DNA of 64,000 nt from Trichosporon coremiiforme (Eukaryota; Basidiomycota; Tremellomycetes; Trichosporonales; Trichosporonaceae). Where the stretch lies: positions 1,203,956 to 1,267,955 of the forward strand of contig BCJJ01000002.1 of NCBI GenBank assembly GCA_039545355.1. The letters run 5' to 3'. Shown here one piece after another: positions 38,018-40,297 of the stretch. The notes under the pieces are model-generated. The model was not told where the DNA came from and searched no databases. It was given only the letters and a program-made list of their open reading frames with translations. The first letter of the stretch is position 1, and each line of letters begins with the position of its first letter. The position numbers and the translations under genes are program-made.

Positions 38018-40080
38018 ATGGGCCTGTTTTCCAAGAAGTCATCAGACAGCGTCAAGGAGGCTGCCGATGCCGTGCGCAAGCTCAGCATGAGCGACGCCAA
38101 GTCCCAGCCGGCCGCCGAGGCTCTCAAGGCCGAGACCATCACTGAGGCTCCCAAGGCTGAGGAGTTCGTCGCCGCGCAGACCATCAAGAAGGAGAAGGGT
38201 GAGTATGCATCCGTTGTAGTCCCAGCTACACAATGCTTTCAGGCAGTTGACATCCAGCCAACCCCGTCGCTGAGAAGAGTACGTTCTGGTCATCCCAGCT
38301 AAAAGTATCCCGCAGCAAGCTGACAAGCAGTCGAGCCCATCGCCTATGAGAAGTGTGAGTCCCCACCACTGATGGGCTACCGCTGGACGGTTGAGCTGAC
38401 CAGCAGTTGAGGCGGTTCCCGTTGAGAAGGGTGAGTCCACCGCTACCGGGCGGAGGACAGCGTGGCAGTACAGACAGCAGAGCTGACGGCCAGCCGAGCC
38501 TTCGACCAAGGAGCAGGGTGGGTTATGATGAAGCAGCTCCCAAGATCCGGCAGCTCAAGCTGACGGCCAGCCGAGCCCGCTACTACTGCGGAGGGTGAGC
38601 CACTGCTTGCAGATGCCGCACTTTTTGGAGATCTGACACGCAGCTGAGCCGGTCTCTGCCGAGAAGAAGGGTGAGTGCCCTATGGCAGCTCCGCAGAGGC
38701 GACAGATACACAGCTGACTCTCAGCCGAGCCCGTCTCCGAGAATAGTGAGTCCTCCAGCCAGCTCCGCAATCGTGGTACACAGAGCTGACGATCTGCCCC
38801 GCTTGTCTCCGAGAAGAGTGAGTCCCCACCTGCCAGCTCCACAATTGGGGCATGGAGCTAACAGTCAGCCGAGCCTGTCCCTCAGAGGAGTGAGTCTCTT
38901 TCGAGCCAAAATTCCGCAATTCTCGTACGGAGCTGACCGCAGCCGAGCCCGCGGCCTCCGCTGTCGCGGAGTGTGAGTCCCTTAGAACAGACAGCAAGCA
39001 AGCAACCTTTGATCTGACAGCAGCCACTCCCGCTGCCGAGGCGGCCGAGGAGAAGCGTGAGTCCCTCCCGTTTGATAATTGCGTATCTTGCCTCAAGAGC
39101 TGACACTCAGCCGCCCCCTTCGTGGAGAAGCGTGAGTCCGCGCATCTAGCTCCCCATCTTCCCTGTAGCTAACGTCCAGCTGAGCCGGCTGTGGCGAAGG
39201 AGTGTGAGCCTTCCCTACATTCTCCTCTAGCCCGACTGAGCTGATCACAGCCGCCACCAAGGACACCGACGACGTCGAGACCCCCAAGGCCACCACCGAG
39301 CCCGAGGAGACTCCCAGCCTCCATGCCGCTTTGTCCGGCACCGGCGCGCTTGCCGCGTCGATCGTCCTCCCCTCGCTCTCTGTCCGTGACGACGCCTCCA
39401 GCACCCACGCGACGACTGGTTCTGAGCCCCCCGAGATGCCTACGCCTATCGTTGCCGTCGAGGCGGGTGCGCCCCTCACCCCTGCGCCTTCGGCGCCCAC
39501 CACGCCCGCCAAGGTCAAGTCCGCTGAGCCTGAGCCTGCGGTGCCTGGGCCCAAGACCCCCGCCAGCCCTACTGCTGTGAGCGTCGCTGAGAGCGTGGCG
39601 GCGGCTGCGGCCAAGGACGAAGAAGGGATTCAGGTCAAGCCTATCGAGATTATGACCAACACGGGTCTGCAGGCGCCCGATCAGACCGCCAGCGACGCCG
39701 TGGCCCAGGCTGCGGAGATAAAGGTCGAGACCAAGACCGAGACCAAGACCGAGACCAAGACCGAGACCAAGACCGAGACCAAGACCGAGGTCCAGGAGAT
39801 CAAGGAGGACAGCAATGATGAGCAGTGGCAGAACGTCGACAAGCTCGTCCCCTTAGACCCTGTTGCCCTGCTCACTACTCCCCCCGCTGAGCAGGCTTCC
39901 ACCCTCGTCTCCGCGGCTGTCGCTGGTGACATTAAGGACGAGGACGATGAGCAGGAGACCGCCACCGCTGAGGAGAAGGCGAGGCTCGCCGAGTACGAGC
40001 AGGGCCTCAAGAAGCACGAGTCCGAGCTGCGCGAGCACGAGCAGGTCGTCGAGACGCACCGTCCCGAGTCATCCGCTTAG
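38018..40080 (+). CDS. unknown disordered protein encoded by a tandem microexon array
   Basis: The first exon (38018-38198) encodes MGLFSKKSSDSV and a charged helix-prone stretch. It is followed by small exons at 38258-38278, 38331-38354, 38407-38430, 38494-38517, 38571-38594, 38644-38670, 38725-38745, 38869-38889, 38943-38972, 39024-39056, 39111-39131 and 39180-39203. The terminal exon is 39251-40080. All junctions are phase 1, so each small exon adds 7-11 residues of the type (A/T)EPVSEK, for example ANPVAEK, AEPVSAEKK and TEPVPQR. A further unit at 38797-38817 (TPLVSEK) has TG instead of AG before it and is left out, giving 434 aa. The terminal exon is Pro/Glu/Thr-rich, carries ETKT repeats and ends in a charged coiled-coil-like helix (EEKARLAEYEQGLKKHE). 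No family is recognised. Because exons are symmetric, skipping any of them keeps the frame. Confidence 0.78.
38199..39250 (+). repeat. tandem exon-intron repeat array (13 units)
   Basis: Units of roughly 65-100 bp each combine an intron (GTGAGTCC... GAGCTGAC... CAG) with a 21-33 nt exon beginning CCGAGCC or similar. Several introns also share an internal agctccgcaatt-like segment, which shows that exon and intron were copied together. One unit has lost its acceptor AG (38795-38796). Confidence 0.85.
39727..39789 (+). repeat. 12-bp tandem repeat coding for ETKT
   Basis: The unit gagaccaagacc is repeated five times plus a partial copy within the terminal exon, giving ETKT x5. The units are nearly identical, which suggests recent slippage and possible length variation. 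Confidence 0.85.
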
Positions 40081-40297
40081 ATCGTAAGTTTTGGTCTTCG
40101 GCTGGTGCTAACTTGTCCCAGACTCGCCTCGTCAGGACGGCCATGTAGGTAGCTCGCATCTGCAATTTCTGACCTGCTTCCAGAGCTTCGTCCCGACCCG
40201 TGTTCCCGTTCAACCTTCCAGCGCACGCTCTGTTCGTGCTGCTCGCTTCGCTCGCTAGTAGCTGTATATCTTTCATCTATGCATGACTATCCTATCT

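Follow-up and report, generated by a model that had tools for sequence, protein, structure and literature searches.

The window, i.e., the whole stretch of 64,000 nucleotides of the Trichosporon coremiiforme genome that was analysed, carries on its forward strand a gene that runs from an ATG at 38018 to a TAG at 40080, a reading that was confirmed by direct inspection and modelling. Exon 1 (38018-38198, 181 nt) encodes a product that starts MGLFSKKSS; a signal peptide is not evident by eye in the N-terminus (MGLFSKKSSDSVKEAADAVRKLS), and MGLFSKKSS resembles what we take to be an N-myristoylation signal. The last coding exon (39251-40080, 830 nt) is acidic and of low complexity and ends in the TAG stop codon. 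Between these two exons lie 12 intact microexons of 21-33 nt, each of which is a multiple of three in length and of phase 1 (i.e., its first base is codon position 2), as well as one damaged unit (38797-38817), for a total of 13 units placed in the array. When the damaged unit is skipped, the predicted product has 434 residues; a Pfam search with this product identified no family at E<=0.001.

The microexons upstream of the damaged unit are located at 38258-38278 (21 nt, encoding ANPVAEK, with the weak and unusual branch TTGAC in the first intron before it and the donor GTACGT after it), 38331-38354 (24 nt, IEPIAYEK), 38407-38430 (24 nt, FEAVPVEK), 38494-38517 (24 nt, AEPSTKEQ), 38571-38594 (24 nt, AEPATTAE), 38644-38670 (27 nt, AEPVSAEKK), and 38725-38745 (21 nt, AEPVSEN); those downstream are located at 38869-38889 (21 nt, TEPVPQR), 38943-38972 (30 nt, TEPAASAVAE), 39024-39056 (33 nt, STPAAEAAEEK), 39111-39131 (21 nt, PAPFVEK), and 39180-39203 (24 nt, PEPAVAKE). 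The introns, with the damaged-unit interval set aside, measure, in order, 59, 52, 52, 63, 53, 49, 54, 53, 51, 54, 48, and 47 nt. The damaged unit has TG as its acceptor dinucleotide and an intact donor, and is probably skipped, which yields a single intron of 123 nt (38746-38868). Tandem Repeats Finder reported a 72-bp unit, present in 1.9 copies, that covers part of the array.

An earlier sequence-only reading had described this region as an array of twelve good exons of 21-33 nt plus one damaged copy, with introns of about 45-65 nt and with all junctions in phase 1; direct modelling bore out the coordinates and the description, the introns range from 47 to 63 nt (123 nt for the one that takes in the skipped damaged unit), and phase 1 applies to 12/12 intact units and recurs in a second copy of the gene (10/10). 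The same reading had proposed a 7-residue (A/T)EPVSEK unit; while a repeated unit is indeed present, it is degenerate and ranges from 7 to 11 residues, with (A/T)EPVS found exactly in only two of the 12 units and with one residue off in one other.

The last exon also includes a 12-bp coding tandem repeat (39726-39789, 5.3 copies) that encodes ETKT units and that is, by alignment, mostly absent from the second copy. Past the stop codon, a possible 3'UTR intron (40084-40121, forward strand) begins 3 nt downstream of the stop, and a possible second one (40145-40183, forward strand) lies 23 nt beyond the first; in the second copy, the region after the stop codon has comparable but weaker intron sites, with the AG farther from the branch.

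A search of the genome (42.0 Mb in 134 contigs) with the array DNA, using a method that passes over very common words, identified two copies of the gene only, i.e., the window copy and a second copy on the minus strand of contig C4 (806582-804832). In the second copy, 10 microexons are present, with lengths of 21-33 nt that are all multiples of three and with phase 1 throughout, and the predicted product has 396 residues. The first 23 residues are identical in both copies, the ATG used as the start codon in our model is conserved in both, and the last exons share the C-terminal block LKKHESELREHEQVVE; the peptide AEPVSAEKK of the sixth window microexon is also identical in the second copy, and the second-copy unit that best matches the damaged unit has a normal AG acceptor. 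A neighbouring gene, named MIC60/mitofilin by Pfam, is kept beside both copies, and its two versions are identical at 608/648 residues and at 265/338 fourfold sites. The two arrays thus differ in unit number (13 in the window, 10 in the second copy) between syntenic flanks. Hybrid genomes are among those reported in Trichosporonales (PMC12820176), and the paired, syntenic, and diverged genes found here would fit a hybrid origin, in which case the two copies would be homeologs.

Chance does not readily produce such an array. The region was shuffled 1000 times with its dinucleotides preserved, and the longest chain of acceptor, microexon, and donor then had a length of 0 in 811 shuffles, 1 in 185, and 2 in 4, while the longest chain in the real region is 7; the array reads as chains of 7 and 5 because the damaged unit interrupts it. 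As the chain detector lets exon length float and takes AGs inside the exon in several units, only chain counts were used. When both strands of 20 sampled 10-kb stretches (40 strands; 19 stretches selected by position and one for its pattern hits) and the other strand of the window were scanned, no chain reached a length of 3, and microexon arrays thus appear to be rare (0 in the 20 sampled stretches). A scan for exons of 3-45 nt across 285.5 kb (the window, the second copy, and larger stretches, as well as loci on contigs C12 and C6 that were included because patterns pointed there) found chains of at least 4 introns only in the window, in the second copy, and in the C12 and C6 methyltransferase loci described below; when the window and the 20 sampled stretches (264 kb) were each shuffled twice, no chain of at least 4 introns was seen.

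Whether exon symmetry depends on the way in which the exons were delimited was addressed by a frame-blind parser, which used splice-signal profiles from 58 array introns with no frame rule and no reward for lengths divisible by three; as its training introns come from the same arrays, the parser is dependent on the first gene models. In the two copies, it recovered 6+5 and 10 internal exons, respectively, and 21/21 of these are multiples of three, as compared to 9/24 introns (p=4e-6, a value that treats units as independent, though they descend from one another, with exon length varying from 21 to 33 nt). The symmetry of the array exons is real. By our own definition of an array (at least 3 consecutive exons shorter than 51 nt, all multiples of three and of one phase), both copies of the gene carry one, with 12/12 and 10/10 units. 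A frame-constrained predictor with a coding-length bonus recovered all 10 microexons of the second copy, with an upstream ATG as the start (503 residues), one of several gene ends that it placed elsewhere than our models do; the frame in this copy stays open farther upstream of the conserved ATG. In the window copy, the predictor retained the first intron and read the array partly in another frame. We prefer the model with 12 microexons over this path, given that the second copy keeps the frame of that model.

A genome pattern search also led to a second gene with an array. This gene, on the minus strand of C12 (81596-80583), encodes a lysine methyltransferase (Methyltransf_16) and has 20 microexons of 3-21 nt, which sit between PKQSFKTFLYD and EGRITLLEEQ and in which exons of 15-21 nt strictly alternate with exons of 3-6 nt. 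Its counterpart on the minus strand of C6 (126671-126075) has 12 microexons of 3-24 nt, with the alternation broken once; the Methyltransf_16 domain was identified at E=2.7e-11 with this C6 copy as the query, hand-joined and with one short exon missing. All 32 microexons (20 + 12) are multiples of three, the introns are 35-55 nt long, and exons are as short as 3 nt. Each array can be read through in only one of its three frames, and this frame joins the same conserved protein segments on both sides in both copies. The frame-blind parser found 34/34 exons (including, in each copy, a 33-nt exon that precedes the array) to be multiples of three, as compared to 12/36 introns (p=4e-10), and the frame-constrained predictor reproduced both arrays. 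As in the window gene, unit number differs between the copies (20 and 12). As modelled here, symmetric microexon arrays occur in at least two unrelated genes of this genome, each of which is present in two copies with an array in both.

The array introns share a stereotyped 3' end, AGCTGACNNNCAG. AGCT is found at the branch in 51/58 array introns, as compared to 10/34 putative ordinary introns, and the distance from the branch motif to the intron end is exactly 6 nt in 45/58 array introns. Candidate hairpins between CAGCT near the donor and AGCTG at the branch, with stems of at least 5 bp, are present in 32/58 array introns, while approximately 14/58 would be expected from shuffled cores, and in 11/34 putative ordinary introns; these counts are suggestive of an intron hairpin. 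Intron cores within one array have a mean identity of 0.48, near the 0.45 of shuffled cores.

Introns of this form are not confined to the two array genes. Among the pattern matches listed (100 of 323 and 100 of 150 places, such that further loci of either kind may exist), six more intron-dense loci share the array-intron form; these are located on C22, C1, C8 (two loci), C12 (a second locus on this contig, at 443-445 kb), and C11. In runs of at least 4 introns at these six loci, only 26/66 short exons are multiples of three, a share that differs strongly from that in the two array genes (p=1e-14), and frame-constrained models of the six loci yielded no long protein recognisable by eye. The six loci were treated as a separate and possibly non-coding class, and they illustrate that, in this genome, a series of tiny exons is not necessarily coding or symmetric. 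The largest (C22:559900-565000, forward strand) has many very short non-symmetric exons with no recognisable reading frame, as well as 58 AGCTRAY branch-like sites between 560.0 and 565.0 kb, as compared to 5 on the other strand; a DNA search found no second copy of this locus, which perhaps gives rise to a non-coding RNA whose precursor contains a large number of mini-introns. At the clusters on C1, C8, C12 (443-445 kb), and C11, mini-introns are mostly 34-47 nt long and the short exons are non-symmetric. The same intron type also occurs on the minus strand of C68 (9.2-9.4 kb), in a gene that by eye resembles an FG-repeat nucleoporin and whose first exons are split in two short exons.

Comparison of the two copies of the window gene indicates which features of the array are kept. 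With 13 window units (the damaged one included) paired against the 10 units of the second copy in an order-preserving manner, nine pairs were obtained and four and one units, respectively, remained unpaired; an identity matrix likewise shows several units without a clear partner in the other copy. Across the nine pairs, mean identity is 0.72 for exons and 0.56 for intron cores (p=0.006), with 0.45 for shuffled cores. In the five gap-free pairs, differences number 13, 10, and 10 of 42 at codon positions 1, 2, and 3, respectively, with no third-position excess; ten 21-nt units show 17, 11, and 20 differences of 70 at the three positions, a weak third-position excess. This even spread of differences over codon positions leaves selection on the exact array peptide without support. 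Unlike the array, the last exon does show peptide-level constraint, as judged from identities of 0.80, 0.85, and 0.67 at the three codon positions and from 173/240 residues identical between copies; its fourfold sites are identical at 66/109. The residues encoded by the array are 56% (window) and 53% (second copy) P, E, V, and K, with a net charge of -12 and -9, respectively. This composition suggests that the stretch is disordered, and the likeness in composition and charge suits a spacer whose make-up would outweigh its exact sequence.

We consider it very likely that this is a real coding array, i.e., one in which a unit was duplicated in tandem within a disordered, PEVK-like linker. The fuller explanation, which we hold to be probable, is that a protein-coding gene carries an array of symmetric microexons that grew by duplication of an exon-intron unit, that is mostly included in full, and that encodes a disordered spacer. 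Under this explanation, the array would gain and lose units by tandem duplication of an intron of approximately 50 nt with an exon of approximately 21 nt, growing via unequal exchange or slippage; gains and losses would be tolerated, as symmetric units leave the reading frame intact and the residues that they encode belong to a disordered spacer. This spacer, with its high share of P, E, V, K, and A, would link a possibly lipid-anchored (perhaps myristoylated) N-terminus to the acidic C-terminal part of the protein. Splicing would follow intron definition, with each short intron serving as the unit of recognition and the introns being removed one by one during transcription; most mRNAs would carry most units, with occasional skipping or retention adding length variants. 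Selection would act chiefly on frame and splice signals and on rough composition and length, and less on the exact peptide.

The principal alternative for a coding array is that the units are mixed combinatorially, with up to 2^12 = 4096 combinations and with a pool of spacer lengths as the function; the sequence-only reading had likewise suggested that a very large family of protein lengths could be produced. It is correct that all junctions are of phase 1, so that every subset of units remains in frame; skipping, which is the simplest fate of the damaged unit, also goes a little towards showing that skipping is tolerated, and several splice sites are atypical (the first-intron branch TTGAC, the donors GTACGT and GTGGGT, and the last-intron branch CTGAT). 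However, a large isoform family is unsupported so far, as a uniform phase results from duplicating a single symmetric exon-intron unit in tandem even if all exons are always included, and as later indels in coding exons would be filtered to multiples of three regardless of whether an exon is skipped, such that alternative splicing cannot be argued from symmetry. In Cryptococcus neoformans, moreover, intron retention is reported to dominate alternative splicing, with few exon-skipping events (PMC5006051); if this species, presumably a relative, is a fair guide, a combinatorial function becomes less likely, and we regard it as unlikely here, though not far-fetched. The same report describes retention-dependent regulation, which could favour an array that serves mainly expression, with serial short introns setting mRNA output by retention or splicing-coupled control and with the peptide as incidental. 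Retention would introduce an in-frame stop in 8/13 window introns, though in only 4/11 introns of the second copy, and the array peptide shows little third-position excess; against this, both copies adhere strictly to the frame and resemble each other in charge and composition, which suggests that the product matters to some degree, and a role primarily in expression is distinctly unlikely.

Two further explanations concern the origin and the status of the units. Repeated insertion of introner-like elements could have cut an existing coding sequence into microexons, and the stereotyped array introns, with their AGCT branch and 6-nt spacing and with a form common to other intron-dense loci, are what such elements might leave behind; insertions would, however, be expected in all three phases rather than in one, the exons of the window gene are themselves repeats, and it is exon plus intron that changes in number together between the copies, leaving this explanation only a slim chance. 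A single long intron spanning 38199-39250, or the skipping of this stretch en bloc, with the units as relics, is highly improbable. While a direct join of exon 1 to the last exon would stay in frame, each unit being divisible by three in length, and while intron cores and microexons have diverged, relics would drift out of multiples of three; all 10 units of the second copy keep both their splice signals and lengths divisible by three, though only 66/109 fourfold sites of the last exon have remained identical.

The closest architectures to this probable coding array are found in schistosome micro-exon genes (MEGs), aphid bicycle genes, and the PEVK region of titin; the likeness is one of design, and we claim membership in none of these groups. 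Schistosome MEGs are described as having 10 to 20 very short exons in series, mostly multiples of three (PMC10526429); in that account they are genes of an animal parasite with introns of 0.1-5 kb and secreted products, while the window gene is fungal and has introns of approximately 50 nt, i.e., 47-63 nt and one of 123 nt, rather than the long introns of MEGs. Aphid bicycle genes have many small internal exons, nearly all of which "start with codon position 2", and the number of microexons exceeds 100 in a relative, megacycle (PMC9168663). This is the junction type found in 12/12 intact units of the window gene, without implying membership; bicycle genes encode putative secreted insect effectors, and their exons are, in the part of that account on which we draw, not described as short-peptide repeats, unlike the window array. 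In the titin PEVK region, numerous short exons of repetitive sequence, with a high content of P, E, V, K (and A), have been duplicated and lost in evolution (PMC6469411). Titin, as presented there, is a giant muscle protein with more than 100 exons and documented splice isoforms, as opposed to the 12 intact microexons of the window gene, and the 56% and 53% of P, E, V, and K in the two copies fall short of the approximately 70% of titin PEVK, with no Pfam family found; at most, the window array works like a PEVK spacer.

With regard to fungi, the metallothionein TmMT of Tremella mesenterica has 10 small exons of 63-105 bp and introns of 48-204 bp (PMC4755600) and is, like the window gene, a fungal gene with small exons for a protein built of repeats; its exons are approximately three times longer, encode metal-binding units, and are not called microexons in the portion of that report considered here. 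Xlr2 of Trichoderma virens contains a single fungal microexon with regulated inclusion, and the same source notes that reports of fungal microexons are few and that such exons had previously been tested experimentally only in S. pombe (PMC11121469); Xlr2 thus uses one microexon as a switch, while the window gene has an array. Among the open-access papers listed in our searches, we found no fungal microexon array. The suggestion of the sequence-only reading that no described fungal gene has this design holds within these listings; the design is nevertheless not singular, as a second such gene occurs in the same genome and parallels in animals are known.

This would be a fungal case of symmetric microexon arrays, of which a few animal examples are known. 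More tentatively, and on balance doubtfully, this lineage may habitually grow "splice-level minisatellites" in the disordered linkers of unrelated genes, under pure intron definition, with protein length shifting by whole units in evolution and, via skipping, within one cell; if true, such minisatellites would have exons down to 3 nt and introns of 35-55 nt in proteins as different as a PEVK-like protein and a lysine methyltransferase. Genes with 10-20 exons of 3-33 nt and introns of 35-69 nt would also provide a strong natural test of the minimal exon for intron definition, and the presence of two copies per gene with unequal unit numbers makes array growth and the tolerance of unit loss directly measurable. 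Finally, both titin PEVK exons (PMC6469411) and plant microexons (PMC8831610) are reported to tend to escape ordinary annotation; since ordinary annotation tends to miss microexons, more arrays of this kind may exist in published fungal genomes.
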